A stretch of DNA of 23,154 nucleotides from a virus. The DNA lies in the IMG/VR virus record IMGVR_UViG_3300040816_001455, positions 1-23,154 of that record; one strand, given 5' to 3'. Shown piece by piece: positions 1,251 to 23,154 of this stretch. Under the pieces are notes generated by a model. That model made no database searches. It saw only the letters and a program-made list of their open reading frames with translations, and was not told the DNA's origin. The number at the start of each line of letters is the position of its first letter. The first letter of the stretch is position 1. The position numbers were made by a program, and so were the translations under genes.

Positions 1251-1284
1251 AAAAAACCTGTAGATCATTCTACAGGATTTTTTT
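1251..1284. terminator. Bidirectional rho-independent terminator
   Basis: A perfect 8-bp stem, CCTGTAGA (1257-1264) and TCTACAGG (1269-1276), has a 4-base loop. It is followed by a T-run on the plus strand and preceded by an A-run that gives a U-run on the minus-strand transcript. It therefore serves both the GGDEF gene from the left and the glycan operon from the right, whose last gene ends at 1387. Confidence 0.85.
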
Positions 1285-1386
1285 AGGTTTATAACTAGAT
1301 TAGCTTGACAAAATGCTAATTTTTATAATGGTTTGAACCTTTATTTTTGTATACTTTAGGATCATCGTTTAGATAGCTGTATTTTT

Positions 1387-3129: not shown

Positions 3130-3137
3130 ACTTATTA

Positions 3138-5346: not shown

Positions 5347-5365
5347 TTTCTTTATTACCCTTTAA

Positions 5366-6421
5366 TTAAATAGCTTTATGAAGCATGCTTCTAAAGTGAT
5401 TAATTTTTTCAATTTTTTGCTTATATTTTCTAGATTTGTTACCAAACGTAATAACTCTCATAACTTTATAAACTGTTAGTTTTTTAGACAACTTATTCAT
5501 TTTTGTAACATAGTTAATGTAGCCAAAAATAGATCCTGTCATATTATTGTTGCTTTCTGTAACTTCATATTTATTAAATATAACTTCACTCATTTTTTCT
5601 GCCCATTGTTTACCAAAGTACTTGTTGGTTAAATTAACTAGTTTTAATAACACAGAGTAAAACTCCATTAAAGTTTTATCGTCATAGTAGCATTTCTCCC
5701 AGTTTAGATTTAATGCACAGTAAATTGATGATAGAGCATCCTCTTTATTCTTTAACTGTATAGCAAATGCATTTGGTGTAATGTCATCGTATGACATTAC
5801 TGCTTGATCTTCTAATAATTTGTATAATACATAAGGACCTTTATGTTGGTCTTGACCTGTATTAATCCAATCTGGGTGTCTAAAACCATCTGCTAAACCT
5901 AAAGCAATTTGATTTAAGTGAGAGTCATGAAATACAATAATTGCATCTTCTTTAATATGTGGTAAAGATGCCAATAGATCTAAGCTTGCCCATGGGTGGT
6001 AATGATGAGCATCAATAAATACAAAATCATACTTTTCTTCATTATCTTTAATTAAAAAGTCTACTGCATACTGACCTGTTTGCAGGTTCCAGTTTTTAGC
6101 AAATTTAGGGTTCATTTCTCTAAATGCATCACCTACTGCTTTTTCTGGCGTGTAATATAATGTGTCTGAAGATAAATCTACAGATGTTAATTTAGCATTT
6201 TTGTTATGTCTAGTTGCTTCATCTAACATGTAGTAAGCTGCCCAACCTGCTGCTGTACCAATTTCTAACATATTTTTAGGTTTGTAATCTTCAATTAAGC
6301 CTTTAATAAATGCACCTGAAGGATAGTCATTATCATTATTACCCATCCACTCTGGTCTTGTTTTAAATAGCTCTATTGTTTCTTCTATTTTTAAGTCCCA
6401 GTATTCTTTGCCTGTTCTCAT
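5366..6421 (-). CDS. SAM-dependent methyltransferase (class I, Methyltransf_24/CmcI-like)
   Basis: A 351-residue protein. The N-terminal ~200 residues hold a class I Rossmann methyltransferase: the SAM-binding loop LEIGTAAGWAAY (52-63), an acidic residue after the second strand (SVDLSS, about 80-85), and FIDAHHYHPWAS (135-146) followed by IVFHDSH (162-168). The His/Asp-rich pattern is like metal-dependent sugar or hydroxyl O-methyltransferases of the CmcI/Methyltransf_24 group. The C-terminal ~150 residues are helical and basic with no recognised domain. An AAGGG site lies 8 bases before the ATG. Embedded between two GT2 genes with almost no gap, it probably O-methylates a sugar of the same glycan; small-molecule or nucleotide-sugar substrates remain possible. 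Confidence 0.8.
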   Translation of the reverse strand: MRTGKEYWDLKIEETIELFKTRPEWMGNNDNDYPSGAFIKGLIEDYKPKNMLEIGTAAGWAAYYMLDEATRHNKNAKLTSVDLSSDTLYYTPEKAVGDAFREMNPKFAKNWNLQTGQYAVDFLIKDNEEKYDFVFIDAHHYHPWASLDLLASLPHIKEDAIIVFHDSHLNQIALGLADGFRHPDWINTGQDQHKGPYVLYKLLEDQAVMSYDDITPNAFAIQLKNKEDALSSIYCALNLNWEKCYYDDKTLMEFYSVLLKLVNLTNKYFGKQWAEKMSEVIFNKYEVTESNNNMTGSIFGYINYVTKMNKLSKKLTVYKVMRVITFGNKSRKYKQKIEKINHFRSMLHKAI

Positions 6422-6423
6422 TT

Positions 6424-7365
6424 TTAATACCCTTTTTTATATTTTTTTAACAGCCTATTAAACATAAATCTTTTATTTAAACTTAGGTGTTTTCTATTAA
6501 TTAAATTTTCTTTTTCTGCATCTACTAATCTTTCAACATACAGCTCTTCACCTTCTGGGTAAAATTTGTATGGTTTAACATATATATCTAAAAAAATTCT
6601 TCTTGAAGCCTTAATATCTAAAACTTTTTGAAATCTACCAGCATTTGCTTCTAAAAATATTTTTGCAATAATTTTAGATGATATATAAGCATTATCTACA
6701 TTAAAACTTTTAGTTACAGAGTCCTCTCTTTGCCTGTAGTAAACAAGCTCGGCTTTATTATACGAAAAAGTCTTAGATTTTAATAAACATTGAAAAGTAA
6801 ATATATCATCCTCAGCGGGGTGAATACCCTTAACAAATGACATAGCTTTCACTAAATCTTTTTTATATAGTTTATTCCATATAGTTACAAAAACGTTTAC
6901 GTCTTTTCTAAAATAGTCTTTAATTGGATTATCAAACTTTAAACTATTTGTTTTAAATGTTTTATGACTAAAATTATTGTAATTAAAACTTTCTGGTACT
7001 TCTATAAATGAGCTTGATGCAAAATCAACGTCATTTTCAATAATACCTTTAACTAAAGTAATTAAAAACTCAGGATGGTAGCAATCATCAGAATCTAAAA
7101 AGCAAATATAATCACCTTTTGCTTCTTTAATTCCTAAATTTCTTGTTGCACCAACCCCCTCATTTTTTTTATCTATAAGTTTAAACCTTGTATCCTTAGT
7201 AGTAAATGCCTTAATAATATCTATACTATTATCAGGGCTTCCATCATTAATACATAAACACTCAAAATTTTTATAAGACTGATTTTGTACCGACTTTAAA
7301 CTATTATGTAAAAATTTTTCTACATTATAAATCGGCACTATAACTGTAACTAACGGCTCTAACAT
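6424..7365 (-). CDS. GT2-family glycosyltransferase
   Basis: A 313-residue GT-A glycosyltransferase. It has the [14 protein letters not shown] start, NDGSPD at 40-45 and the metal-binding DSDD at 91-94 ([13 protein letters not shown]). The C-terminus is short and basic. The ATG has a GGAAG site just upstream that lies inside the end of the UDP-glucuronate decarboxylase gene; the two reading frames overlap by 7 bases. The methyltransferase gene begins 2 bases after its stop. A role in adding one sugar to the shared glycan is inferred from position; donor and linkage are unknown. Confidence 0.87.
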
Positions 7366-8465
7366 ACTCTTCCTTCTAATTTAGCTTTTACTGAGCCAAT
7401 ATTAAGATTAAATGATTCATCAGTATAGTTTTCTTTATTTAAAACATGTACTTTAGCTTCTTGCTCTGCAAATTCATTCAACTTAAATTGTGCATTAATA
7501 GAAATGTCTTTAAATTTATTTGTTTTTAATACTTCTTCATAATATTTAATTGTATGGTTTAAACCTTCTTCTAATGAAATTTTTGGTTCCCAGCCTAATA
7601 CTGATTTTGCTAAAGAAATATCTGGTTTTCTTTGAGTTGGGTCATCCTCTGGTAGAGGCTCTTCAATTAATTTTGATTCACTATCTACTTTATTTAAAAT
7701 AATCTCAGCTAATTCTCTAATTGTAAACTCACCTGGGTTACCCAAGTTAACAGGACCTGTAAAGCCTGTTGTATTATTCATCATTTTTTCTAAACCATCA
7801 ATTAAATCATCAGCATAACAAAATGACCTTGTTTGTGAGCCATCTCCATAAATCGTAATATCATCACCTTCAATTGCTTGGCAAATAAAGTTTGTAACAA
7901 CTCTACCATCTAATGGGTTCATATTTGGGCCGTAAGTATTGAAAATCCTAACCACTCTAATATCCACACCTTTTTGCCTATGGTAGTCAAAAAATAACGA
8001 TTCGGCACATCTTTTACCTTCATCATAACATGCTCTAATACCTATAGTATTAACGTTACCTCTGTAACTTTCTTTTTGTGGGTGCTCTAATGGGTCACCA
8101 TAACACTCTGATGTAGAAGTAAATAATACTGTTGCATCATGCTCTACTGCTAAATTTAAAATATTAATAGAACCAATAACTGATGTTTTAGTTGTGTGAA
8201 TTGCATAATCTTCTTGATAAAAGATTGGAGAACCTGGACAAGCCATATGATAAATTTGATCGATTTTTCTTTCAAAGCTAATAGGTGTTACAACATCATG
8301 TAATATAAACTCAAAGTTTTCTTTATCTAAAAGGTCTTCAATTGCTTCTAATGAACCTACATAGTTATTATCTAGACATATTACATAATGACCCTGTTTA
8401 ACTAAATAACGGCATAATGTTGAGCCTAAAAAGCCTGTGCCCCCAGTAACAAGTATTGTTTTCAT
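7359..8465 (-). CDS. UDP-glucuronate decarboxylase (UDP-xylose synthase)
   Basis: An extended short-chain dehydrogenase/reductase that converts UDP-glucuronate to UDP-xylose using bound NAD+. Numbered from the ATG at 8465: NAD loop GGTGFLG at 8-14, TSTSECYG at 116-123, catalytic YxxxK in CYDEGK (Y147, K151), RIFNTYGP at 173-180, and [12 protein letters not shown] at 206-217. The [22 protein letters not shown] and GSQTRSFCY blocks are hallmarks of this enzyme rather than of UDP-glucose epimerase or dTDP-glucose dehydratase. I chose 8465 and not the in-frame ATG at 8483 because an AGGAG ribosome site lies 6 bases before the 8465 ATG and nothing comparable precedes the other. About 45 extra C-terminal residues follow the usual end. 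As the first gene of the operon it supplies the donor sugar. Confidence 0.88.
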
Positions 8466-8717
8466 ATTAACTCCTAATCTCATATATTTTAATAATCTTA
8501 CTGAAATTAAGAATAACTATTTTATTGTTATTAGTCAACATAAACTTTGAAGGTTTTTTTAATATGTTTGGAGTCATAACCAGATTAATTTCATTATTTA
8601 TTACTTTAATTATACTATTTTTTCTGTACACTAACTTACAATTTAAAGTATACTATCTGTCAAACAATTATTAATAATTATAAGTCACTAGTGTTAATAC
8701 TATATAAACTTTTGACA

Positions 8718-9638
8718 TTATTTAATATCCTTTGCTATACTTCTTATCCTCCATAATCTATATTGAGTTTTTAAAGGTAATTTACGAAAAGACAAACCTC
8801 TTTGCCTTGCTAATTTATTTAATTGGTTAATTAAACATGTAGACAATTCTGATCTATTTTTCTTATCTCTGTAAACTTTATTAATACACATTCTTACAGC
8901 AACTAGTACTCTTTTTTTCGCTAAATAAAGATCATCTTTATTTTTAAAAAAATCTAAAACATAATTCATACCTGTAATATAATCCATAATTTTTTTTTTA
9001 GAAAAATCACTTCTTACTGTTGATATATTATCATTTGTATAGATATAACAAGGAGTTTTTAAAGATGCATAGCTATTAATTTGCGAAAACAGAGTTATAA
9101 TATAAGGCCAATCTTCAAAGTAAATACCTTCAATAAATTTTTTATCTTTTACTACTGATGATTTATACATTTTATTCCATACTACAGAAAATGATTTACG
9201 ATTATTTAATATTTCTTTTAAAGGTTTTTTATGTATATTCCATTGTTTATTAACTTTAGGTATTTTTATTTTTTTAGATGTATATAAAAAAGAGTCTGAA
9301 ATAACAATATCAGAACACGACTCAATAGCTGTATTATGCATTAACTCTAAAGCATATGGTGGAAGTGCATCATCAGAGTCTAAAAATACAACATAATCAC
9401 CTCTTATTAATTTACAGCCAGCATTTCTTGCTACAGAACGACCACTATTTTCCTGGTTTATAATTATAATTCTATCGTCTTTATTTTTAAATTCCTTTAA
9501 AATCTCTAAACTTAAATCTTTAGAACCATCATTAACACAAATTACTTCAAAGTTTTGATAAGTTTGATTTAGAACTGAATCTAAGCATCTTATTAAATAT
9601 TTTTCTGCATTATATGTAGGTATAATTATACTAATCAT
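8718..9638 (-). CDS. GT2-family glycosyltransferase (separate unit upstream of the glycan operon)
   Basis: A 306-residue GT-A glycosyltransferase: ISIIIPTYNAEKYL start, NDGSKD at 36-41, and DSDD at 87-90 in VVFLDSDDALPPYAL. An AAAGGAAA site lies 7 bases before the ATG. It is separated from UDP-xylose synthase by about 250 bases of very AT-rich DNA, so it probably has its own promoter or is only weakly read through into the operon. No convincing terminator is visible after it. It resembles the GT2 of 6424-7365 in size and layout, so duplication within the locus is possible. Donor and acceptor are unknown. Confidence 0.85.
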   Translation of the reverse strand: MISIIIPTYNAEKYLIRCLDSVLNQTYQNFEVICVNDGSKDLSLEILKEFKNKDDRIIIINQENSGRSVARNAGCKLIRGDYVVFLDSDDALPPYALELMHNTAIESCSDIVISDSFLYTSKKIKIPKVNKQWNIHKKPLKEILNNRKSFSVVWNKMYKSSVVKDKKFIEGIYFEDWPYIITLFSQINSYASLKTPCYIYTNDNISTVRSDFSKKKIMDYITGMNYVLDFFKNKDDLYLAKKRVLVAVRMCINKVYRDKKNRSELSTCLINQLNKLARQRGLSFRKLPLKTQYRLWRIRSIAKDIK

Positions 9639-9727
9639 CTTTTTTTCCTTTCAAAGAACAACCTATACACTATATTAGTAGAATAACATATTAAAAAATA
9701 TAATTGAATCAAAATAGAACATAGGGT

Positions 9728-9775
9728 TAACAGGAGTTCCTGTAGAAAATAACATGGAATTATCATTACCTGTTA
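9728..9775. repeat. Palindromes between hsdR and the GT2 gene
   Basis: The palindrome ACAGGA-GT-TCCTGT lies at 9730-9743. In addition TAACAGG (9728-9734) is inverted at 9769-9775 (CCTGTTA). They sit immediately downstream of hsdR and upstream of the GT2 gene, so they could be a weak terminator for hsdR (no U-run is seen) or an operator for the GT2 gene. Confidence 0.4.
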
Positions 9776-9791
9776 TTAATCATAATCAAGA

Positions 9792-12700
9792 TTAAACCTC
9801 ACCACCAACACCTTTAAACTTATCAACAAGCATTGATATTTTTTCAAATACTGTTTGCTTTTTAGTTAAGTATTGAGGGTTTAGAGGGCTCATTTTAGGA
9901 AGAATCTCATTTAACTCTGTACCATTTTCAGAAGCATACTCTCGTCTTAATGATGACATGATATAACGCTTTGCAGCATCAATATTTAATTCTTCATCAT
10001 CAATTAAATGTTTAACCTCTTTCTTTTGTTTATCTCTAGCAAACTCATAAAAGGCATCTATAACGCTTTCTTTGTCTGTTATATCATCTAAGTTAGTTTC
10101 ATTAATAAAGTCAACTAATAGGCCTTCTTTAGATCTATTACCAATGCTAGAACGAATCAGTCTACGAACTTCTTCAACTAAAGTATCTTTGTTTTTTGAA
10201 TCCTTATTCTTTTCAAAAATTAACTCTAGAATATAATCAAGGTTAATTTCTTGAGATTTTAAAAGCTCAACTTCAAATACTACATCATCCCAGTTTATAG
10301 ATGAATCTTCTTTTTCGTTACCTTCTCTTTGCTGACGTTGCCAATCACAAATATCATTATATGTTGATTTATAGTCTTGCAGAGCTCTTTCAGATGGTAC
10401 AAAAATATTTTTCATATCTTCAATATTGTTATCATCTAAATGGTATTTATTTTTAAACTCTTCTAAAGCCTTTTCATCTTCTAAGTCAACACCTTGCAAA
10501 GCTTTTAGACTTACAAACTCATCATAGTTTTGTAAGATATTTTCAACTTTAAGGTATTCACCAAATAGCTTAACAAATGCTTTTTTATCTTTTTCTGTCT
10601 CAATTTCTTGAGGGTTAGGGAATGATACATTTAAATCTTCCACAATTTCAATAAAACCGCGTTTATCTTTACCTGTAATAATATCAGTAAAGCCTTCCAT
10701 ATATTCTTTAAAGCTTTTTTCTAATACTACATTATTTGTATTTTCATCACCAAATAAGCGAATAGCATCAATAGTGGCTTTTTCTAAGTTACGGAATGTT
10801 ACCACATTACCAAAAGTTTTAGTAGCATCATAAATTCTATTTGTTCTTGAATAAGCTTGGATTAAACCATGGTATCTTAAGTTTTTATCTACAAATAAAG
10901 TATTTAATGATGGAGCATCAAAACCAGTTAAGAACATACCTACAACAATAATTAAATCAACCTCTTGGTTTTTAACTCTGTTTGAAAGGTCTCTATAATA
11001 GTTTTGGAACTGCTTACTTTCAACACTAAAGCTTGTTTTAAATGTTTTGTTATAATCATTAATAGCTGAAGTTAAAAACTCTTTAGCACTGCTGTTTAAA
11101 GCTGTTGGTTCAAAAGTTTCATCTTGGATATCACCTATGGCATCTTGTGCTTCATTTGCAGCAAATGAGAATATAGTAGCTATTTTTAATGGCTTTTCAG
11201 AATTTTTTTGTAGATTTTTAAACTCTTCATAATAATGCTTAGCAGCTTCAACACTACTTACAGCAAACATCGCATTAAAGCCTTTAGCTCCAACTTGTCT
11301 TCTGTGTGTTTTTTTGTTGAAGTTATCTAAAATATATTGAGTTACCTCATTAATACGCTGAGGGTGTAGTAAAAGCTCTCTAGTTTCTGCAGCTGTTAGC
11401 TTATCCATATCTTGTTCAGATTCAATTGCCTTAAACTTAGGTCTTACATCGTTATATTTAACATTGAATTTAAGAACTTTTTCATCTCTAATAGCATCAG
11501 TAATAACATAAGTATGTAATTGAGTACCAAATACACTTGCAGTAGTTTCTGCACCTAGTGCATTTTCAGGGAAGATTGGAGTACCTGTAAAACCAAACTG
11601 GTAGAAGTTTTTAAATTTTTTCTTTAAGTTCTTTTGAGCTTCACCAAATTGAGAGCGATGCGCCTCATCAAAAATAAATACTACATGCTTGTTATAAACA
11701 TCTAGATTTTTTTCTGTCTTCATTAAATTGTTTAGTTTTTGAATAGTTGTAACAACAATTTTGTTATCGTCTTTTTCAAGGTTTGCTTTTAAACCTGCTG
11801 TATTGTTAGACCCATTAACACTATTTTCAGAAAACTTTTGGTATTCTTTCATTGTTTGAAAGTCTAAGTCTTTACGGTCAACAACAAATAGAACCTTATC
11901 AATAAAGTCAAACTCGGGTTCTGTTGCTAATAACCTAGCTGCTTTAAAACTTGTTAATGTTTTACCTGAACCTGTTGTATGCCACACATAACCGCCACTT
12001 TCAACCTTACTCCAGTTTTTTGCTTCAAATGAGCTTTTTACTTTCCATAAAATACGCTCTGTTGCTGCAATTTGGTAAGGTCTCATTACTAATAGAGTGT
12101 CATTAACATCAAATACAGAATATTTTAAAACAACGCTAAGTAAAGTTTCTTTACCCAAAAATGTTGCTGTAAAATCTTTTAGGTCTTTAATTAGTTTATT
12201 GTCTGACTTTGCCCAGTTAATAGTAAAATCAAAACTATTTTTATTACGCTTTGTTGTATTAGCAAAATAACGAGTATCTGTACCGTTTGAAATTACAAAC
12301 AGCTGTAAATATTTATATAATGAATTTTCAGAGTTAAAGCTTTCTTTACTATAACGGTGGACTTGGTTAAAAGCCTCACGGATTGCAACACCACGCTTTT
12401 TAAGCTCTACTTGCACTAAAGGTAAACCATTAACTAAAATAGTTACATCATAACGGTTTGCATGAGTACCAGTTTGCTCAAATTGGTTAATAACCTCAAC
12501 TTTGTTTCTTGAAAGGTTCTTTTTATCAAATAGGTAAATATTTTGGATACGACCATCATCAAAAGTAAAGTCATGTATATAATCTTCATGCACTTTACGA
12601 GTTTTTTCAACTATTGAATCACTAGCATTATCTAAAAAGTTTCTACAAAAACGCAGCCATTCATCATCACTAAATTTTGTTTTGTTTAAACTTTCAAGAC

Positions 12701-12902
12701 AAGCTCTAACATTATCACGCATAGCATCAACACTACGAATATCTTTACGGTATTCATAACCTTGGTTTACTAAATCTTTAATAAGCTCTCTTTCTAAGTC
12801 GTCTTCAGTTTGATAATGCAATGGCATATCAAAATCTTTAACATACTTATTTAAAACAATAAACTTATCTGACTCTATAATTGGCTTTGTTTTATTATTC
12901 AT
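9792..12902 (-). CDS. hsdR: Type I restriction enzyme R subunit (type IC, EcoR124-like)
   Basis: The motor and nuclease subunit of a type I restriction complex, 1036 residues, close to the 1038 of EcoR124I HsdR. The PD-(D/E)xK nuclease shows D152, E166 and K168 (in VQVELKKR); the EcoR124I residues are D151, E165 and K167, so spacing is identical. The SF2 translocase follows with Walker A TTGSGKT (309-315), DEAH at 412-415 and GFTGTP at 437-442. The C-terminus ends with the KGVGG segment seen in type IC HsdR. All catalytic residues look intact. It is the last gene of hsdM-hsdS-prrC-hsdR; its AAGG ribosome site overlaps the prrC stop codon, so translation is probably coupled. It cuts unmodified foreign DNA after ATP-driven translocation. 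Confidence 0.95.
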
Positions 12903-12914
12903 TATTATTTTACC

Positions 12915-14123
12915 TTATTTTTTATCTTCCCAAAACTTATAACTTGTAGTTAAATGTTTTAACAAAAATTCAACTGTTTTCTTTTCAGCTTCTGTAGGTT
13001 CTGCAACTGCCTCTGTAGATAAAGATGAATGACTTGTAAACTGAATTACTCTTTTATAGTAAACATCTTTATCATCTGGTAAAAGCTCAGCCCATCGAGG
13101 ATAGCCTAAAAAGCTTGCTGTTTTTTCATATAAATTTCTTAAAAGTGTAAAGTGATACTTCTCAACAGTATTACTTTCAATAGCTTCATTGATGACTTTT
13201 TTTAAGTATAAGTGGTAAGAAAAACTAGTATTTGAGTCTCCGTTTTTACCCTCTAAATTATATGTTCCATCTTCATTTTTTTTAAGCATATAAGTAGACT
13301 TACTATTAAGCTCATTATGTAAAACATTATAGAAGAATGGATTATGAGTAGTAATGATAAACTTTAAGTTTAATTTCTTATCATTACTATTTTTTATTAG
13401 CTGAGCTAGATTAACCGCTAATTCAATAAGATGGTTTTCATCTAAAGAGCTTACAGGGTCATCAATAAAAATATATTCTAAATCACTAAATTTTGACTTA
13501 AATTTATCAGTATCTTCTTTTTTAGTAGTACTATTGCTATTTTCATCTAAAGATTCGTCTGCTAATCTTTTGTTTTCATTATCAATTAAATCAAGAACAA
13601 TTGATTCAAAAACACTATAAAAAACACTCCAAATAAAGTTACTTTCTTCACCTTTTGAAATTTTAATATTCTCTGCAACTTCATCATTGCCTTTTTCAAA
13701 AGAAAATGTAACTTCTGAAAATGCGGGTACTACTTTTCCATCTACATTTTTATATTCAGGATTAAATTTAGGCGTTAGCTTATCGTTTGAATATTTTTGG
13801 AATGTTTCAATAATAGCTGGTTCTTTGGTATTTTCATTTAAAATCCAATTAGTAAACTCATTGGGCTGTATTTTTAATTTTGGTTCAGAGTCATTTTCTA
13901 AATCATTATCCCAATAAAATAAATCTTCTGTAAAAGCATTATAATAAAGGATTTTTCTTTTTTTATCTGAATCATCACCTGTAGTATCATCAGCTATAAT
14001 TAGACTTTTAAACTCTTTTGAAAGTCTTGTTTTACCTGTACCATTAAAGGCATAGATTAACTTAACAGAACTCTTTGATTCTTCTTTTAATTTTTTTGCA
14101 ACATCTGCTAATGTCATAATCAT
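12915..14123 (-). CDS. prrC: PrrC-like anticodon nuclease (latent tRNA endonuclease with ABC-type NTPase)
   Basis: About 402 residues, numbered from the ATG at 14123; a GTG at 14132 or ATG at 14117 in the same frame are alternatives, but a GAAAG site is best placed for 14123. The N-terminal two thirds is an ABC/SMC-like NTPase: Walker A FNGTGKTRL (26-34), signature-like SKGEE (156-160), Walker B IFIDDPVSSLD (218-228) and H-loop TTHNP (258-262). The C-terminal part has R329-x3-E333 and, 32 residues on, H365. This matches the catalytic R320-E324-H356 of E. coli PrrC in both order and spacing. The gene lies between hsdS and hsdR, exactly as prrC does in the E. coli prr locus. PrrC is kept silent by its type I partner and cleaves tRNA-Lys when a phage disables restriction; I infer the same role here. 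A low-complexity stretch at about 190-210 separates signature and Walker B. The tRNA target is untested. Confidence 0.88.
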   Translation of the reverse strand: MIMTLADVAKKLKEESKSSVKLIYAFNGTGKTRLSKEFKSLIIADDTTGDDSDKKRKILYYNAFTEDLFYWDNDLENDSEPKLKIQPNEFTNWILNENTKEPAIIETFQKYSNDKLTPKFNPEYKNVDGKVVPAFSEVTFSFEKGNDEVAENIKISKGEESNFIWSVFYSVFESIVLDLIDNENKRLADESLDENSNSTTKKEDTDKFKSKFSDLEYIFIDDPVSSLDENHLIELAVNLAQLIKNSNDKKLNLKFIITTHNPFFYNVLHNELNSKSTYMLKKNEDGTYNLEGKNGDSNTSFSYHLYLKKVINEAIESNTVEKYHFTLLRNLYEKTASFLGYPRWAELLPDDKDVYYKRVIQFTSHSSLSTEAVAEPTEAEKKTVEFLLKHLTTSYKFWEDKK

Positions 14124-14141
14124 ATCACACACACTTTCAAA

Positions 14142-15305
14142 TTATTTAGTGAAGTTGAATAGCATATCTCTATAGTATTCATATTGTTGTTGTCGTAGTT
14201 CAATTTCACGAGGTAAACCATCACTAATAGAATTAGTTAAATTGTCAAACTTATCTAAGATATCAACAATACGCTGCTGCTCTTCTAATGATTTTTTAGA
14301 GTCATTAGGGAATGGTATTGGTATTAAATAGTTTTCAAACATTGGTTTTCTTAAAGATGTTACAGAAGCATGAACCGATACTTTTTGAATATAACTTAAA
14401 AAATTATTTCTTATAAAATAAAATAAATATTTGGAATTTAATAAGTTACTAGTAACATGTATTCTATAAGCTCTTTGATGTAGTGCATATTTTCCTTCTA
14501 CATAATGAAAAACTTTACCAACGCCAACACCATCTCCAGCTGTAATAATAGCTGTTTCGTCAAATTCATAACTATTAATTAAACGAGGAGTTTGAGAACG
14601 AACATAAAATGGATATTTACCATCTTCAACAGATTCATTTGTATTAGAACTACCTGTACCAATAAGAGCTAACTCTTTTAATGCTATAAACTCTATATCA
14701 TCTCCAAAATTAAAAATACTATTTTGGTAGTGTTCGTATTGAGTTTTGCGAGCTGTAAGCTCTGCTGTAAGCTCTGCTGTAAGCTCTGCTGTAAGCTGGG
14801 TAAAGTTATCTAAAATTCTAACAATTTCAGCCTGTATCTTCAACGACTTCTCCGGATTCTCCGGGCATGGGATGGGAATCAACTTATTTGAATAGTTGCT
14901 TATCCATTGTCTTTTATGGTCATTATCAATTAATTGGCTTGGTAACGAGTTCATCCAATAATAAACATACTTTAAAATATATTTATTATTATCTTTTGAT
15001 GTAATCATTTTCATAGCTGAAGATTTAGCCTTAAAATCAAAATCAACCCACTTATTTGCTGTTGTAAAATCATCAAAAATTATTACAGGGCTAACGGATG
15101 CATTATATATACCGTCTAACTCATCTGTGTAACCTAAAATAAATGTTTTACCAGCTGTTAATACTGGAGTTTTATATGAATCATTATAGTTTTTTGATTT
15201 CACTAAATATTTTGTTGGTTGTTCGTAACCAGCAACATCACCCAAAGGCAACCACTCAACATTGGCACCGTCTAATAGTTTTGTTAAATATTTTTCATTA
15301 AGCAT
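14142..15305 (-). CDS. hsdS: Type I restriction-modification specificity subunit
   Basis: The DNA-recognition subunit of the type I complex, 387 residues (EcoR124I HsdS is about 400). It has two target-recognition domains. The first, about 15-150, is followed by the central conserved helix, which contains tandem TAEL units at 172-185 and the segment [14 protein letters not shown]. The second, about 205-350, is followed by the matching C-terminal helix ending in [15 protein letters not shown]. The TAEL repeats set the distance between the two half-sites in EcoR124-type enzymes. A GGAG site lies 7 bases before the ATG, and the start overlaps the hsdM stop region by 8 bases. The target sequence cannot be predicted by eye. 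Confidence 0.93.
14752..14797. repeat. 12-bp tandem repeats inside hsdS (TAEL units)
   Basis: Three full copies and one 10-base partial copy of the unit GCTGTAAGCTCT (plus-strand reading) run through 14752-14797. On the coding strand they encode [14 protein letters not shown] in the helix joining the two recognition domains. Because the unit is 12 bases, gain or loss of a copy stays in frame. Confidence 0.95.
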
Positions 15306-16848
15306 TTTTTATCTCCGCAATAACTGAGTTAATCTCTGAGCGAAGTCTATTAATATGAACAACTGTCTTTTCAATATCTTCTTCTATTTCTTTAATTGGA
15401 CGTCTATTGTTCTTAATTTTAGGTTCTACATATGCACTTACTGATAAATTATAATCTTTTTTTATAATATCTTCATTATCAACTAATATAGAAGTATGTT
15501 TAACATCTGATTTATTTGCAAATAAACTATAAATTGCTTCTATATTATCTTCTGTTAGTTTATTATTATTTGTTGCAGGTTTGAAGAAATCTTCAGTGCT
15601 TGCATCAATAAATTGAGTTTTTGTATCTTTTTTATTTTTTGCTAATACTAAAATATTAACCGCAATTGATGTACCATAAAATAAATTAGGAGCTAATGAT
15701 ATTACAGATTCAACATAGTTATTTTCAACTAAGTATTTTCTGATTTTTTGTTCTGCACCGCCACGGTAAAAAATACCAGGGAAACAAACGATAGCAGCCT
15801 TACCTTTTTGCGATAGGTAGTTTAAAGCATGTAACACAAAAGCAAAGTCAGCTTTTGATTTTGGTGCTAAAACGCCTGCAGGTGCAAAACGGTCATCATT
15901 AATAAGTGTAGGGTCATCACTACCAATCCACTTAACTGAATAAGGTGGGTTAGATACAATTGCATCAAATGGCTTTTCATCTTTAAAACGAGGGGTTCTT
16001 AAAGTATCACCTAGTGCAATATCAAACTTTGCGTAGTTAATGTTATGTAAAAACATGTTCATTCTTGCAAGGTTTTGTGTTGTATGGTTAAGCTCTTGTC
16101 CGTAAAAACCATCTTCAATAATATGGTCTTCAAACTGTTTACGAGCTTGTAGTAATAACGAACCTGAACCTGCTGCAGGGTCATAAATTTTATTGATTTT
16201 ATTTTGCCCGTGGATTGCAATTTTAGCAATAAGCTCTGATACTGTTTGCGGAGTAAAGAACTCACCACCTGATTTACCAGCATTTGCCGCATAGTTTGAA
16301 ATTAAGAACTCATAAGCATCGCCAAAAAGGTCAATCTTACTAGCTTGGAAATCACCTAAAGGAAGTTCTGCAACTTGTTTTAAAACTTTTGCAAGGCGCT
16401 CATTCCTATCTGCAACTGTATTACCTAGTCTTCTGCTTGTAGTGTCAAAGTCTGCAAATAAACCTTTAACATTTTCTTCAGATTGGTAGCCCATTGCTGA
16501 ATTTTCAATATCTGAAAAGATATTTGCAAGGTCTGTGTTTAAACTTTCATTTTTATGAGCATGTTTTGCCACATTTTCAAAAAGTTGGCTTGGGTAAATA
16601 AAATAACCTTTAGTTTTTACAGCATCTGCTTTAATTTCATTTGTAATAATATCGTCTGATAGTTCTGCATAGTTAACTGAAGCATCGCCTGCCTCAATAT
16701 ATAGCTTAAAGTTTTCACTAATAAATCTGTAAAATAATGAACCTAGGACATATTGCTTAAAGTCCCAACCATCAACAGCACCTCTAACATCGTTAGCCAT
16801 TGCCCAAATTTTTCTTTGCAACTCTTTTCTTTGTTGTTCACTTGTCAT
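15298..16848 (-). CDS. hsdM: Type I restriction-modification DNA methyltransferase subunit
   Basis: The N6-adenine methyltransferase subunit, 516 residues (EcoR124I HsdM is 520). The N-terminal helical HsdM_N domain spans about 8-160. SGGEFFTP (193-200), SAM-binding DPAAGSGSL (223-231) and the catalytic NPPY (300-303) are all present. With HsdS it methylates the host's target sites; with HsdR added the complex restricts. It is the first gene of the operon, behind an AAGGAA ribosome site and a promoter at 16899-16927. The LexA-like repressor gene ends only 88 bases upstream on the same strand. Confidence 0.95.
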
Positions 16849-16885
16849 AATTTTTAATATTCCTTAAATAGAAGTTTTGTTGTGA

Positions 16886-16904
16886 TATATTACTACGTAA
16901 TATA
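16886..16904. promoter_or_regulatory. Palindromic operator candidate at the hsd promoter
   Basis: TATATTAC (16886-16893) is inverted exactly as GTAATATA (16897-16904) around a 3-base centre. It covers the -10 element of the hsd promoter, a position where a bound repressor would block transcription. The neighbouring LexA/S24-type protein is the obvious candidate; that link is inference. Confidence 0.5.
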
Positions 16905-16927
16905 CATTATTTTGCCATATTTTTCAA
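16899..16927 (-). promoter_or_regulatory. Candidate sigma70 promoter of the hsd operon
   Basis: On the minus strand a TTGAAA -35 element (16922-16927) is followed by a 17-base spacer and a TATATT -10 element (16899-16904), about 50 bases before hsdM. Each hexamer differs from consensus at one position. The -10 lies inside the palindrome at 16886-16904. Confidence 0.6.
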
Positions 16928-16936
16928 TCTAAATAG

Positions 16937-17554
16937 CTATATCTTTTTTATTATCTGCACAACTTTACCTGCTAACATAAAGTCATCTTTTTCTCTATCA
17001 ACGAAAATTGTAGGTTCCTTACGGTTGCTTGATATTAAACGAAGCTCTTTTTCATTAACTTTATAAAGTTCTTTTATCTTTACTTCGTAGTTTTTTTCAC
17101 AGACAATTATATCACCATTTTTTACACTTGAAAGATCTCTTGTTTCTTTTGCTATTATTTTATCCCCTTCAGAAATAGTTGGCTCCATTGAATCTCCCTT
17201 AGCTTCTACCATAAAGCAATCATTAATTTTATGACTAAGCATACCTGAATACATTGGGATATAGTCTTTTACATTATCTAGAAAAATACCATTAGCACCA
17301 CATTGTGCTTGTCCAAAATATCTTATATACTCAACTGCATTTTCTTCACTTTTTTGAGGGGTTAGCTCATAGCCTTCAGAAGTTTTATGCAAATATCCTT
17401 TTTCTTCAAGTTGTTTTAGATGGTGTAAAACTAAATTATTAGATTTTGTTCCAATTTCTTCTCTCATTTTAGATAATGTAATATCTTCGGCTATATTGTT
17501 TTGAATATAATCTAATAATGCTATCTGTTTGGGGTGTAGTGATTTTTTCTTCAT
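16937..17554 (-). CDS. LexA/S24-type self-cleaving transcriptional repressor
   Basis: A 205-residue protein with a winged-helix DNA-binding domain (about 5-65) joined to a LexA-fold S24 peptidase domain (about 78-205). The cleavage site is C85-G86 in FGQAQCGANG. The catalytic pair is S122 (in GDSMEP) and K159 (in YEVKIK); their 37-residue separation equals S119-K156 of E. coli LexA. The residues for RecA-stimulated self-cleavage are thus present. It sits directly upstream of hsdM on the same strand and divergent from the ParB-methyltransferase gene, with palindromes at both promoters. I infer autorepression and control of the hsd-prrC operon, relieved by DNA damage. It could instead be the cell's main LexA or a prophage repressor; its position among defence genes favours a dedicated regulator. 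Confidence 0.85.
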   Translation of the reverse strand: MKKKSLHPKQIALLDYIQNNIAEDITLSKMREEIGTKSNNLVLHHLKQLEEKGYLHKTSEGYELTPQKSEENAVEYIRYFGQAQCGANGIFLDNVKDYIPMYSGMLSHKINDCFMVEAKGDSMEPTISEGDKIIAKETRDLSSVKNGDIIVCEKNYEVKIKELYKVNEKELRLISSNRKEPTIFVDREKDDFMLAGKVVQIIKKI

Positions 17555-17719: not shown

Positions 17720-19015
17720 ATGAGCCAGTTAAAAATTGAATACATAAAAACATCATCCATATATCCCTATGAAAAAAATGCAAGAATTCATGATGATAAA
17801 CATATTGGTCAAATAATGTCATCAATTAAGACATTTGACTTTACAAATCCAATACTGATAGATGAAAATAATGAGATATTAGCTGGTCATGGAAGATGGC
17901 TATCAGCTAAAAAGTTAGAATTAAAAGAAATTCCTTGCGTAGTTTTATCTCATTTAAGCGAAAGTAAGAAAAAAGCTTATAGAATTGCTGATAACAAGTT
18001 AACTATAAATGGTTCTTGGGATGAAGACTTACTTTCTTTAGAGTTAAAAGATTTATCAGACTTAGAACTTGATTTTGATTTAGATGTTGTTGGTTTTGAG
18101 CTTCCAGAAATAGATCTAATGTTACAAAATTTAGATGATAAAACGGAAGACCCTTTAGATGAGATTCCGGAGATAAGCGAAAAGAATATTGTATCAAAGT
18201 CTGGAGATTTATGGCAATTAGGAGAGCATATCATTTATTGTGGCGATAGTTTGAAGGATGAAAGTTTCGCAGCATTAATGAAAGATGATAAAGCTACTAT
18301 GATATTTACTGATGCTCCGTATAATGTAAAAGTTGATGGTCATGTTTGCGGCTCTGGTAAGGTAAAACATGACGAATTTGCTATGGCTTCAGGAGAAATG
18401 ACAAAAGAAGAATTTACAAATTTTTTAAGTAATGCTTTTACAAATATAAAAAATTATTCAAAAGATGGTTCTATACATTATTTATGTATGGACTGGCGTC
18501 ATATTGCAGAAATTACCACCGCTTGCAATAGCATTTACTCAGAAATGAAGAACCTATGTATTTGGAATAAATCCTCTGGTGGGATGGGCAGCTTATACCG
18601 TTCTAAGCACGAATTAGTATTTGTTTATAAAAACGGTAACAAACCTCATATTAATAATATTGAATTAGGCAAGCACGGTCGTTATAGAACTAATGTTTGG
18701 GACTATGCTGGTGTTAATTCATTCGGGGAAGAGCATGATAAACTAAAACTACATCCAACAGTTAAGCCGGTTCAAATGATAGTTGATGCAATAATGGACA
18801 CAAGCAATCGAGGAGATATTGTTTTAGATTCATTTTTAGGCTCAGGTTCAACATTAATAGCTTGTGAAAAAACAGGTCGTGTTTGTCGTGGTATTGAGTT
18901 AGAACCTAAGTATGTAGACGTTGCAATTCAAAGATGGCAAAAACTTACAGATAAAAAAGCTGTAAATTTAAATAGTAACAAAACATATAACGAATTATTA
19001 GAGGAGATGAAGTAA
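17720..19015 (+). CDS. ParB-domain fused DNA methyltransferase (N4/N6, beta-type motif order)
   Basis: 431 residues from the ATG at 17720; the in-frame ATG at 17711 touches the AAGG ribosome site, whereas 17720 has normal spacing. Residues 5-95 are a ParB/sulfiredoxin-like domain with EILAGHGRWLSAKKL (52-66). A linker follows, then an amino-methyltransferase in which catalytic motif IV, TDAPY (197-201), precedes SAM-binding motif I, DSFLGSGST (370-378); this order marks the beta class. DAPY is a variant of the more usual DPPY. Such ParB-methyltransferases are common in prophages and usually lack a cognate nuclease; they may protect element DNA or regulate it. The stop overlaps the DUF5681 start by one base (TAATG). 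The linker (about 110-155) is strongly acidic. Confidence 0.88.
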   Translation: MSQLKIEYIKTSSIYPYEKNARIHDDKHIGQIMSSIKTFDFTNPILIDENNEILAGHGRWLSAKKLELKEIPCVVLSHLSESKKKAYRIADNKLTINGSWDEDLLSLELKDLSDLELDFDLDVVGFELPEIDLMLQNLDDKTEDPLDEIPEISEKNIVSKSGDLWQLGEHIIYCGDSLKDESFAALMKDDKATMIFTDAPYNVKVDGHVCGSGKVKHDEFAMASGEMTKEEFTNFLSNAFTNIKNYSKDGSIHYLCMDWRHIAEITTACNSIYSEMKNLCIWNKSSGGMGSLYRSKHELVFVYKNGNKPHINNIELGKHGRYRTNVWDYAGVNSFGEEHDKLKLHPTVKPVQMIVDAIMDTSNRGDIVLDSFLGSGSTLIACEKTGRVCRGIELEPKYVDVAIQRWQKLTDKKAVNLNSNKTYNELLEEMK

Positions 19016-20061
19016 TGGCAGGATACAAGAAACCACCTAAAGATAGTCAGTTTAAAAAAGGCAAATCTGGTAACCCAAAAGGGAGACCTAAGGGAAGTAA
19101 GAATAAAGAAAGTATAGCAGAAAGCATTAGTAAAGAGTTTTCTTCAAAAATTAATTTAAAAAATGGGGAAACTATAAGCAAAATGGATGCAGCAATAAAA
19201 AACTTTTCTAATAATATGCTTAAATCAAATAAATTGCATGAATTATCAAAAGGAATAGATATACTTCGTAAAATTGAGGAAGACAATAAACAAACTAAGC
19301 TTGCTCTAGAGTTTACAGGAAAAATAATAGATGAAAAGTATTTAGATGAAGAAGATGTTAGCAATTTTGCAAAAGGTAAAAAAGACCCTAAATTTAATTA
19401 TCCAGAAGGTGTGCATAAACTATATCATCGAGAAAACTCTAAACATATAATGGCATTGGACGCTGTAAGAAAGAATCAAACTTTAGGTAATATTTACGAA
19501 TATATAAATAAAGTTAGCGATATTAATTCATTAATAACTCAGGCAAATAATGAAATGACTTTCTGGTCTCATGTTGAAGAAGATATTTTGCCTAATTTTA
19601 ACCTTAATAAAAAAGAAAAAAGCGAAGTTATTTCTATTCTTGCTGAAACTAGAGAGTTCCCTAAAGCCGACATAAATGTATTAATGACATTATATCAAGT
19701 TTTAAGTGTAGAAAATAATAATCTTAAATGTTATATGTTTTTAGAAAGGGATAGATTAATCGCATCTAACTATTATTATGAAAATGAACAGGCTTATTTA
19801 GAAAGAAACTATATTAATGAAGCCTTAAAAGAAGATCCTAATTTTACTAGAAAAGAATTAGAGCTTGCGAATAATAAGCTTAAAAATTCATATCATACTT
19901 TTACTAATGAAGAAAATACTTACAAATTCTTAGAACTAAAAGATGTTATGACAGATGGAGAACTAGAGCTATTATCAAACTGGCTCAATAATAGCAACGA
20001 TAAGAAAGATTTAGTTACTTATGGTGATGCTATTGATAAAATAGAACAAAAGTACGGATAA
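19015..20061 (+). CDS. DUF5681 domain protein
   Basis: 348 residues. The N-terminal 30 residues (FKKGKSGNPKGRPKGSKNK) are the lysine/glycine-rich DUF5681 signature, a likely nucleic-acid-binding tail. The rest is charged and mostly helical, without motifs I recognise. It starts in a TAATG overlap with the methyltransferase gene behind a GAGGAG ribosome site, so the two are co-translated. DUF5681 proteins typically lie next to ParB-methyltransferases and terminase genes in phages and integrated elements; no terminase is present here, so this pair may be a remnant or a stand-alone cargo module. Function unknown. Confidence 0.75.
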   Translation: MAGYKKPPKDSQFKKGKSGNPKGRPKGSKNKESIAESISKEFSSKINLKNGETISKMDAAIKNFSNNMLKSNKLHELSKGIDILRKIEEDNKQTKLALEFTGKIIDEKYLDEEDVSNFAKGKKDPKFNYPEGVHKLYHRENSKHIMALDAVRKNQTLGNIYEYINKVSDINSLITQANNEMTFWSHVEEDILPNFNLNKKEKSEVISILAETREFPKADINVLMTLYQVLSVENNNLKCYMFLERDRLIASNYYYENEQAYLERNYINEALKEDPNFTRKELELANNKLKNSYHTFTNEENTYKFLELKDVMTDGELELLSNWLNNSNDKKDLVTYGDAIDKIEQKYG

Positions 20062-20116: not shown

Positions 20117-21277
20117 CTAGTTTATATAAAAGCTTAATAAATCATCATACTCAATTAATAAGCCTGAACTTTTTAACTCATCTTTTTTCTGTTGCCATAA
20201 CACTTTCAGAATCTTTTCAATTTCATCTACATTTCCGTTATGTATAGCTTTATGACAATTAGGACATAGTACAGTGATGTTTTGAGGAATATCTAAGGAG
20301 ATATCAAACTGAGATTGAGCGGATGTTGGTATTAAATGATGTGCTTCCATATAAGGATTATTTTGCCTATTTAGGAAACTACTGTGGTCATTGTCACAAT
20401 CACATTTATATTCATTTTTTATAATTATGGCTTTTGATAAAGTAGGATTTCTTTTTAATTTTAGTTTTTTATTAGAAGTGCTGTAACTTATAGGTTTAAA
20501 ATAATTTTCTAAAAACTCGTTTATTTCTTCTTTCTTTATTGGTTCAAAAGAATTTAAGTTTTTATTAAATTTTTCGTCTTCTAATAAATCTTTGTCACTA
20601 TCAAAGTATACTGATTCAGAGAAAAACTCTTTAGTATAAACATCTTGTAAAGAGTTACCAGAATCATCTTTCCATAGCTCTAGACCTTTTGAAATCTCTC
20701 CTAAAACTAAAGATATAGCTTCTATAGGAGAGTCAAAAATAATATCTTTGACAAAAATATAATCATTATCTTGTTTCTTAATTATACCTTTAGATTTTAA
20801 ATTTTCAAATTGATTAAGAAGTTCTGGAGTATTAGTTTTATTAAGGTTACAGTTAGAACCTTTAAAAACTATAAATCTATTTCCACCTATATAACGTCCA
20901 GATGCATTCAAATTTTTGCTATTATAATAAAATTTTGTATCAAAATATTGTTGTCCTAATAAACTTTCTAAAGCATTCATAACTTCTGGTTTTAATATCC
21001 AAAATTTATTATTTAGCTTGTCTACCCCATAATTACACAAGATATCAGACCATAACTTACCTTTTTCAATATTATAATACTTAGCTATTTTTTTTGAGGG
21101 CCTGGACATTTTCTGGTTGATTGCTGCACACCAACCATCATGACCTAAAGAGTAAGATAAAAGAGAAGATTTAGCTACACCCTGATATTCTTTATAGAAA
21201 AACTCTAAAAAGGCGAGGTCATTTTCATTTATTAATTCATTATTTTTTAAAATTTCTGAGAAGTTTAAATTATACAA
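20117..21277 (-). CDS. HNH endonuclease with DUF4357-like domain
   Basis: 386 residues in three parts. Residues 1-115 have no family I recognise. Residues about 131-215 resemble DUF4357: FIVFKGSNC, a Gly-Ile-Ile segment, then FDSPIEAISLVLGEISKGLELWKDD and a terminal LQDVY. Residues 288-350 form a zinc-finger HNH nuclease: C292/C294 (KCDCDNDH), EAHHLIP (311-317) with catalytic H313/H314, NITVLCPNCHKAIH (333-346) with C338 and C341. DUF4357 occurs in several restriction-type nucleases. A role in cutting foreign or modified DNA is likely but inferred; a homing-type nuclease is an alternative. The AAGGAG ribosome site is 12 bases before the chosen ATG and is partly inside a 12-bp hairpin. An in-frame ATG at 21289 lies too close to that site. 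Confidence 0.8.
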   Translation of the reverse strand: MYNLNFSEILKNNELINENDLAFLEFFYKEYQGVAKSSLLSYSLGHDGWCAAINQKMSRPSKKIAKYYNIEKGKLWSDILCNYGVDKLNNKFWILKPEVMNALESLLGQQYFDTKFYYNSKNLNASGRYIGGNRFIVFKGSNCNLNKTNTPELLNQFENLKSKGIIKKQDNDYIFVKDIIFDSPIEAISLVLGEISKGLELWKDDSGNSLQDVYTKEFFSESVYFDSDKDLLEDEKFNKNLNSFEPIKKEEINEFLENYFKPISYSTSNKKLKLKRNPTLSKAIIIKNEYKCDCDNDHSSFLNRQNNPYMEAHHLIPTSAQSQFDISLDIPQNITVLCPNCHKAIHNGNVDEIEKILKVLWQQKKDELKSSGLLIEYDDLLSFYIN

Positions 21278-21287
21278 TATTTCATCT

Positions 21288-21324
21288 CCTTATTTTAGAT
21301 TAATTTTTTACTTCTAAAATAAGG
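21288..21324. promoter_or_regulatory. Perfect 12-bp inverted repeat at the HNH/ncRNA divergence
   Basis: CCTTATTTTAGA (21288-21299) is exactly inverted at 21313-21324 with a 13-base loop. In the HNH transcript the stem would bury four bases (AAGG) of the AAGGAG ribosome site. As DNA it could be an operator: a TAAAAT -10-like hexamer at 21315-21320 would start a plus-strand transcript near 21327, where the structured block begins. Confidence 0.6.
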
Positions 21325-21329
21325 TAAGA

Positions 21330-21580
21330 ACCGGGGGCTCGAAAAACTGTCACACAAGGAAACCAGCCGCATAAACTTTTAAGCCGTAAAGCTCTGGACA
21401 TGGAATATGCACCCCGGTAGGATAATTCTTTAAAATACTTATAAAATATTAATAATCAGCCTATAAATAAAATAGACTAAAATTATGTACCGGGATAACG
21501 GTTCGGTAATAAACCAGATGACTGGTTGTCCCGGACATTATCCTTGTTATGAAAGTGGTTTTCGAGGCCACGGGCTCCCT
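21330..21580 (+). ncRNA. Candidate structured noncoding RNA (unrecognised family)
   Basis: No gene occupies 21278-21725. Within it the outer parts of 21330-21580 are much richer in G and C than anything nearby and dense in complementary segments. A closing helix pairs GGGGGCTC (21333-21340) with GGGCTCCC (21572-21579), 8 pairs including two G-U. Inside it GGATAAT (21420-21426) pairs with ATTATCC (21537-21543). CCGGGA (21490-21495) pairs with TCCCGG (21529-21534) and encloses the hairpin AACCAG-ATGA-CTGGTT (21512-21527). GTGG (21555-21558) pairs with CCAC (21568-21571). ACCGGGG (21330-21336) can instead pair with CCCCGGT (21412-21418), which excludes the closing helix. Bases 21427-21487 are an AT-rich linker. 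The strand is assigned because the block lies upstream of, and on the same strand as, DUF2924. It matches no RNA family I can name. Confidence 0.55.
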
Positions 21581-21587
21581 ACTTAAG

Positions 21588-21630
21588 AAGCTTGAGTTTA
21601 TTTTAAAATAATAAAGCTTGATAGTCAAGC
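21588..21630 (+). repeat. Direct AAGCTTGA repeats sharing one inverted partner
   Basis: AAGCTTGA occurs at 21588-21595 and 21614-21621. TCAAGC (21625-21630) can pair with either copy, giving two mutually exclusive hairpins between the structured block and the DUF2924 leader. There is no U-run after it, so it is not a standard terminator. Confidence 0.45.
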
Positions 21631-21648: not shown

Positions 21649-21717
21649 CTTTTAGTTATATTTAACTGGACTTACTACCAACTGTAAGCGTTACTGTTAT
21701 TGTAACTAAAAGAAAGG
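21649..21717 (+). promoter_or_regulatory. Leader with alternative hairpins before DUF2924
   Basis: CTTTTAGTTA (21649-21658) is exactly inverted at 21703-21712, one base before the AAAGG ribosome site (21713-21717). Inside the loop CTTAC/GTAAG (21671-21675 and 21684-21688) and GTTAC/GTAAC (21690-21694 and 21702-21706) form smaller hairpins. The second of these shares bases with the outer stem, so only one can form at a time. This could set translation of DUF2924 and the integrase, or be a binding or recombination site. Confidence 0.5.
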
Positions 21718-21725
21718 TTAATATT

Positions 21726-22163
21726 ATGGCTAAACGACTGAAGCAACTTAAAAGCTTAGATAAATTACATAAGCTAAGTCAAACAGAACTTAAAATTATA
21801 TGGGAGAATGAGTTTAAAACAACTCCACCAAGTAATATGAAAGCTCTTTTAAGACCACTATCTTATAAATATCAAGAAATAACAATTGATAAACTCAGTA
21901 AAATTTCAAAAAAACGAATTACTTATTATATAAGAATGTTAGATGGTGGAATAAAAAAGAAAAGCCCCAATAAAATTCAAGTTAAAGATGGCACAGTCTT
22001 TAAGAAAACTTACAAAAACAAAGAGCATACCGTACTATTTTCTAATAATAAATATCTTTATAATAATAAAGAATATCGCTCGCTATCAGCAATAGCTAAT
22101 GAAATAACAGGTAGCATAACTAGCGGAATTAAGTTCTTTGGAATAACAAGGAGGAAAGCATAA
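21726..22163 (+). CDS. DUF2924 protein, recombinase-associated
   Basis: 145 residues with the full DUF2924 pattern: an N-terminal LSQTELKIIWENEF.TTPP helix region, the PLSYKYQE segment (about 44-51), a central HTVLFSNNKYLYNNKEY region, and the C-terminal SLSAIANEITGSITSGIKFFGI (about 118-139) in which the usual tryptophan is replaced. This family is nearly always found directly upstream of a large serine recombinase in Alphaproteobacteria, and here the two genes overlap at TAATG. A role as a DNA-binding accessory or directionality factor is plausible but unproven. It has an AAAGG ribosome site 8 bases before the ATG. Confidence 0.85.
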   Translation: MAKRLKQLKSLDKLHKLSQTELKIIWENEFKTTPPSNMKALLRPLSYKYQEITIDKLSKISKKRITYYIRMLDGGIKKKSPNKIQVKDGTVFKKTYKNKEHTVLFSNNKYLYNNKEYRSLSAIANEITGSITSGIKFFGITRRKA

Positions 22164-23154
22164 TGAGCGTAAAATGTGCAGTATATATCAGAAAATCTAC
22201 AGAGAAAGGCTTAGACCAGAATTTCAACTCTTTACATAACCAAGAAGAGGCCTGTAAAAATTATATTTTATCGCAAACTTTTAATAATTGGGAATATTAC
22301 AAAACATTTGAAGATGCTGCAATAAGTGGTGGAACGACTAATCGTCCAGCACTACAGCAAATGATATCAGAAATTAAAGCAGATAAAATAAATACTGTTA
22401 TAGTTTACAAAGTTGATAGACTTTCAAGAACAATTGTAGACTTCCATAATATTATGAAAATATTAGAAGAATATAACTGTAACTTTGTATCAATAACTCA
22501 ATCCTTTGATACATCAAACTCCATGGGTAAGTTAACATTGAATATGTTGCTATCATTTGCTCAATTTGAGAGAGAAGTCTCCGCAGAAAGAGTAAGAGAT
22601 AAAGTTGCATCATCAAAACAAAAAGGATACTGGATGGGTGGAGTTGCCCCTATTGGATATGACACAATAAATAAAGAATTAACTATTAATGAAAAAGACT
22701 CTGAGCTAGTTAGACTTATTTTTAATAAATACATAGAATTAAAATCAATATATTTATTAAAAGATTGGCTTGATGAACACCACTACAAAACTAAAATAAA
22801 AATAACTAAAACAGGTAAAAAAACTGGAGGGAAGCCATTTAATACATCTCATCTTCATCAAATGTTAAATAATCCAACATATATTGGTAAAATTAAACAT
22901 TTAGATAATGTTTATAAAGGTAGACATGAACCAATTATCTCAAAGGAAATTTGGGATAATGTACAAAAAATATTATTATCAAATTCAAATAAAATTAAAA
23001 ACAAAGGTAAGAAAAAGCATTCTCAATCATATTTATTAAAAGATCTGGCCTACTATCAAGATAAAAAATTAATGTATACCTATTCAAAAAAAGAAACATA
23101 CACTAATTACTACTATGTTTATGATAAGGTAAATTATATCAATGCCCACTATCT
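22163..23154 (+). CDS. Large serine recombinase/integrase (3' partial)
   Basis: The reading frame from the ATG at 22163 is open to the right edge, so the 330 residues seen are only the N-terminal part. The catalytic domain has YIRKST with nucleophile S12 and R10, VYKVDRLSR (about 79-87), and FAQFERE followed by SAERVRDK. A recombinase domain (about 165-270) includes GGVAPIGY, the KPFNTSHLHQMLNNPTYIGKI segment and the start of a zinc-ribbon-like region. Large serine recombinases integrate and excise phages and mobile elements between short attP and attB sites. An ideal AAGGAGG site stands 8 bases before the start, and translation is coupled to DUF2924 through the TAATG overlap. The catalytic residues are intact, so it is probably active. 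Confidence 0.92.
   Translation, partial: MSVKCAVYIRKSTEKGLDQNFNSLHNQEEACKNYILSQTFNNWEYYKTFEDAAISGGTTNRPALQQMISEIKADKINTVIVYKVDRLSRTIVDFHNIMKILEEYNCNFVSITQSFDTSNSMGKLTLNMLLSFAQFEREVSAERVRDKVASSKQKGYWMGGVAPIGYDTINKELTINEKDSELVRLIFNKYIELKSIYLLKDWLDEHHYKTKIKITKTGKKTGGKPFNTSHLHQMLNNPTYIGKIKHLDNVYKGRHEPIISKEIWDNVQKILLSNSNKIKNKGKKKHSQSYLLKDLAYYQDKKLMYTYSKKETYTNYYYVYDKVNYINAHY

Follow-up and report, generated by a model that had tools for sequence, protein, structure and literature searches.

Ribosome-binding-site-sequestering leaders, among them translational riboswitches and autoregulatory leaders, place a long structured 5' region before a single gene and end in a hairpin in which the Shine-Dalgarno sequence is paired. 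HEARO, the omega RNA of IscB, is a structured non-coding region that immediately precedes the gene of an HNH nuclease in a mobile element, and palindromic or MITE/REP-pair elements consist of intergenic DNA in which inverted arms flank a spacer. In low-GC genomes, intergenic stretches with a high GC content are the mark exploited by GC-IGR pipelines (PMC8723152, PMC11109978). In this work we have analysed a stretch of this kind in IMG/VR virus record IMGVR_UViG_3300040816_001455 (positions 1 to 23,154; this whole stretch of 23,154 nucleotides is called the window below). The block at 21330-21585 is a 270-base GC-rich, strongly folding sequence which lies inside an AT-rich mobile element, directly before a restriction-type nuclease gene; the GC content of the whole window is 28.7%. 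When a mobile element transfers a lone restriction nuclease, every new host is put at risk, and an RNA leader that limits translation of the nuclease would, if true, explain how such cargo is tolerated. Should the block be no more than an inverted-repeat element, it would be an ordinary finding.

Though the window is listed as a virus record, its positions 1-17000 are mostly a bacterial glycosyltransferase/ABC-transporter and restriction region, and for this reason the record probably represents host DNA whose right end carries a recombinase element. A type I restriction-modification operon of hsdM, hsdS and hsdR was found at 9792-16848, with a PrrC-like anticodon-nuclease gene (12915-14132; PADLOC PrrC E=8e-141) inserted between hsdS and hsdR. 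At 19015-20061 there is a gene for a DUF5681 protein of 348 aa; Pfam has no match for the ~250 residues at its C-terminal end. Reading of the open frames in two related loci, L002 and L014, revealed a terminase-like large-subunit gene near this neighbourhood, which is missing in the window. Among solved structures, the relative of the HNH protein next to the block is EcoKMcrA (PDB 6ghc, E=4e-8), a modification-dependent nuclease, and PADLOC matched the protein to its type IV restriction model mREase_IV. The features discussed here are collected in Table 1.

Table 1. Positions in the window of the block, its predicted helices and the neighbouring sites and genes
Feature	Position	Strand	Details
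Long-range closing helix, 8 bp, CTCGAAAA/TTTTCGAG	21338..21345 with 21559..21566	-	pair probabilities mostly >0.9 on both strands
Inner helix CCCGGTA/TACCGGG	21413..21419 with 21488..21494	-	from the exact helix list; in the minus-strand MFE structure
GC island / arm 1	21330..21430	.	101 bases, 47.5% GC; inverted similarity to arm 2
AT-rich linker between the arms	21431..21484	.	13% GC
GC island / arm 2	21485..21585	.	101 bases, 47.5% GC; inverted similarity to arm 1
ACCGGGG side of the proposed competing helix	21330..21336, partner CCCCGGT 21412..21418	-	unpopulated in the predicted ensemble
Promoter-like site TTGACT-17-TAAAAT (10/12)	21600..21628	-	points into the block; inferred start near 21593
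Perfect 12-bp hairpin CCTTATTTTAGA/TCTAAAATAAGG	21288..21324	-	pairs AAGG of the HNH gene's Shine-Dalgarno sequence
Shine-Dalgarno sequence AAGGAG	21286..21291	-	8 bases before the TTG start at 21277; read from the sequence
McrA-like nuclease, 386 aa	20117..21277	-	DUF4357 (158-210) and C-terminal HNH (306-348); domain search, structure match, PADLOC
Conserved palindrome ACTGGACTTAC-N8-GTAAGCG	21664..21697	+	before DUF2924; recurs before related DUF2924/recombinase genes
DUF2924 protein	21726..22163	+	PF11149
Serine recombinase	22163..23154	+	resolvase and recombinase domains (PF00239, PF07508); cut by the contig end

A sequence-only reading of this DNA had described a gene-free block with two GC-rich islands in a low-GC background, and both parts of this description hold. 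The islands occupy the 448-base gap between the HNH gene and the DUF2924 gene, and their GC content compares with only 19-26% in the intergenic regions elsewhere in the window. Six-frame translations of the block gave no Pfam match at E<=1, and the sole open reading frame of at least 60 aa across it is a 62-aa frame with a GTG start. Aligned with each other, the two arms resemble inverted copies over ~100 bases, with a local score of 42 against a mean of 22.9 and a maximum of 40 in 500 shuffles. The block is a real and unusual sequence feature.

The same reading had proposed an unrecognised structured RNA closed by an 8-bp long-range helix. This helix was recovered, and it dominates the predicted ensemble on both strands. 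The block holds 2 helices of at least 7 bp with at least five G-C pairs, compared with 0.22 in shuffled sequences (P=0.015). On the minus strand the predicted fold reaches -81.7 kcal/mol (z=-4.39), which none of 300 shuffles equalled, whereas the plus-strand value of -69.0 kcal/mol (z=-2.03) is modest and was attained by 3.7% of shuffles; the gap of -12.7 kcal/mol between the strands was matched by 1.7%. Energy alone is neither unique to the block nor decisive, because other windows in a contig-wide scan also came near z -4, and we give more weight to the GC islands and the similarity of the arms. In the arm-to-arm alignment, transitions that keep a G-U pair number 9 on the minus strand and 1 on the plus strand, a bias which would lean towards a minus-strand RNA without being proof, as part of it comes from poorly aligned stretches. 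Rfam gave no match to the block at the gathering threshold, with tmRNA, SRP, RNase P, 6S and riboswitches all negative; at E<=5 only a chance snoRNA match appeared, and ARAGORN detected no tRNA or tmRNA. As a structured-RNA candidate that matches no Rfam family, the block is supported to the extent that one sequence permits. The RNA reading comes from a single sequence, as no relative of the block was found.

Could the block switch between two structures? A 7-bp helix of ACCGGGG with CCCCGGT, which would exclude the closing helix, had been suggested as such a switch. The helix exists, but its predicted pair probability is 0.000 on both strands, and a fold forced to contain it is less stable by 12.5 kcal/mol (minus strand) or 7.6 kcal/mol (plus strand). 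In a two-state switching RNA the exclusive structures would be comparably stable; with an alternative this much worse, the folding model offers nothing in favour of switching between these helices, and the proposal is not supported.

A role of the block in the neighbouring recombinase module had also been considered. From contigs of genomes and viruses we assembled a set of 160 recombinase loci, to which six phage or plasmid loci were added (~165); nhmmer and blastn searches of these DUF2924/recombinase loci found nothing like the block, similarity being confined to the palindrome at 21664-21697. An association with the DUF2924-recombinase pair is not supported, and the strand evidence favours the HNH gene instead. 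Among 448 genomes, 153 of the order to which a related alphaproteobacterial genome belongs and 295 of Elusimicrobiota, the block gave only short matches, in its AT-linker or in coding sequence. The best GC-rich pair of matches (G140 and G102) lay inside a gene, which we take to be hfq, and was judged a chance match given the 153 genomes searched. Phage and plasmid records held nothing credible that resembles the block; three exact scans of IMG/VR with 17-18 bases and a further scan with an arm consensus returned nothing or chance coding matches, and single-protein searches of IMG/VR with the DUF2924, recombinase and HNH proteins gave no close relatives. The nearest matches of two flanking genes are in AT-rich Alphaproteobacteria MAGs and in Elusimicrobiota. 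As judged by these sequence comparisons, the block appears to be an orphan.

What is conserved in these loci is the short palindrome, with the consensus ACTkGACTTnC-N8-GnAAGCG. Many lineages carry it before a DUF2924 or recombinase gene, in loci labelled as Alphaproteobacteria, Elusimicrobiota and Gammaproteobacteria; its carriers are, besides the window, L008-L011, L014, L021, L066, L227-L232, L237 and others. This palindrome could be an operator/promoter, with TTGACT at its start, or a recombination site. At several Elusimicrobiota and alphaproteobacterial loci an opposite-strand gene, such as an HNH or Mrr-type restriction gene, is flanked on one side by DUF2924 and on the other by a second palindrome copy, which precedes the recombinase. 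Inverted cargo genes of McrA-like HNH, Mrr-type or unknown kind were seen in L227, L230-L232, L237, L009, L021 and L066 as well as at 20117-21277 of the window. In L227, L230, L231 and L237 the cargo gene begins ~15-35 bases from the palindrome, whose left end, reverse-complemented, contributes to the ribosome-binding site of the cargo. With inverted cargo beside the second palindrome copy, often starting only tens of bases from it, this position resembles a hotspot of restriction cargo. The HNH gene of the window has the same orientation to the palindrome, but its start is at a distance of 387 bases, and the additional space is taken up by the block; the block is therefore not a standard part of the recombinase module or of such cargo genes.

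Which gene, then, might the block serve? We tentatively regard it as the main part of a structured 5' leader, ~315 bases long, which would be made from the minus strand ahead of the HNH nuclease gene, and we give this reading somewhat less than an even chance. The leader would belong to the HNH-gene side, opposite to the DUF2924-integrase, because of the strand asymmetry, the promoter-like site and the continuity of the block into the Shine-Dalgarno hairpin. The promoter-like site is suggestive only, since the region holds 12 such sites against 11.3 expected by chance in AT-rich DNA. The hairpin has an energy of -12.0, against -4.7 for shuffles, of which 0.4% are as low, and in the predicted full leader the AAGG of the Shine-Dalgarno sequence is at least 99% paired. 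A scan of the minus strand from the block to the HNH gene found no intrinsic terminator. RNA polymerase would start near 21593, as suggested by the promoter-like site, and the 5' end of the transcript is predicted to form a short hairpin (21591-21574), followed by a multibranched domain which the arm 1/arm 2 long-range helix would close. At the 3' end of the leader the perfect 12-bp hairpin is predicted to pair the AAGG of the ribosome-binding site, ahead of the TTG start. As a likely outcome, a self-endangering restriction-type nuclease would be translated little or only under certain conditions; the large domain may serve to stabilise the leader or to sense a trigger. A single minus-strand mRNA that carries leader, hidden ribosome-binding site and nuclease is the most economical reading of the observed sequence features and predicted folds, from which we infer transcription, repression and a trigger. 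Against it, the positionally equivalent Elusimicrobiota HNH genes, close to the palindrome, have no such leader, so that a leader is not required for HNH cargo genes of this kind. Perhaps the block even represents a new class of large cis-regulatory RNA, which silences the nuclease cargo of a serine-recombinase element until a trigger opens the ribosome-binding site, although we think this quite unlikely. The leader proposal is now specific as to the strand, the gene served and the test, and a single sequence cannot decide it.

The main rival, which we hold to be somewhat unlikely, is palindromic DNA, as a non-autonomous mobile element or a repeat like a REP pair, composed of two decayed inverted ~100-bp copies and an AT-rich spacer, with no RNA function. 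The inverted relationship of the arms along ~100 bases, the mobile-element setting and the lack of the block at equivalent loci, as expected of a recent insertion, all fit such an element. With its inverted arms on either side of an intergenic spacer, the block is similar to MITE/REP pairs. It differs from them in being single-copy as far as seen, with no second copy in the 23-kb window, in the 448 genomes of two related groups or in phages or plasmids, and in its strand-asymmetric fold; moreover, no target-site duplication was noticed by eye. It may also be that the block gives rise to a free-standing small RNA, from either strand, which acts in trans by base-pairing regulation or in a function of the element. 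The self-contained fold closed by the long-range helix would suit this unlikely alternative, as would the exclusion of known Rfam classes, but on the minus strand no intrinsic terminator comes straight after the block and the next feature is the Shine-Dalgarno hairpin. Serine integrase attachment sites commonly adjoin the integrase gene, and since 140 bases separate the block from the beginning of the pair of DUF2924 and recombinase genes, it may be an attachment region, or else a replication origin or packaging site of the mobile element; this is very unlikely, as the conserved sequence of the ~165 related loci is the palindrome and nothing there is similar to the block. That the block is a chance feature, whether ordinary intergenic sequence or the remains of a foreign gene richer in GC, agrees with the z values near -4 elsewhere in the contig but hardly with the GC content of the islands, an arm similarity and a minus-strand energy beyond all shuffles, and the lack of a protein signature, and is highly improbable.

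How does the putative leader of the HNH gene compare with the described systems? In its position, immediately before the gene of an HNH nuclease in a mobile element, the block matches the omega RNA of IscB, and the sequence-only reading had allowed for an RNA that guides or is packaged by the neighbouring element. We have seen no evidence for this. The HEARO comparison failed on both features tested, a covariance model match and a RuvC domain split by HNH: the block had no HEARO match at E<=5, and the protein has only DUF4357 and HNH with no RuvC family match, which makes it McrA-like rather than IscB-like, with positional equivalents elsewhere that lack this RNA. From the ribosome-binding-site-sequestering leaders the block differs in having no Rfam family, known ligand or relatives, and its alternative helix is unpopulated. 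It nevertheless resembles them in its long structured 5' region before a single gene and in the feature that characterizes a structured translational leader, a Shine-Dalgarno sequence which is predicted to be paired in a stable structure before the start codon.
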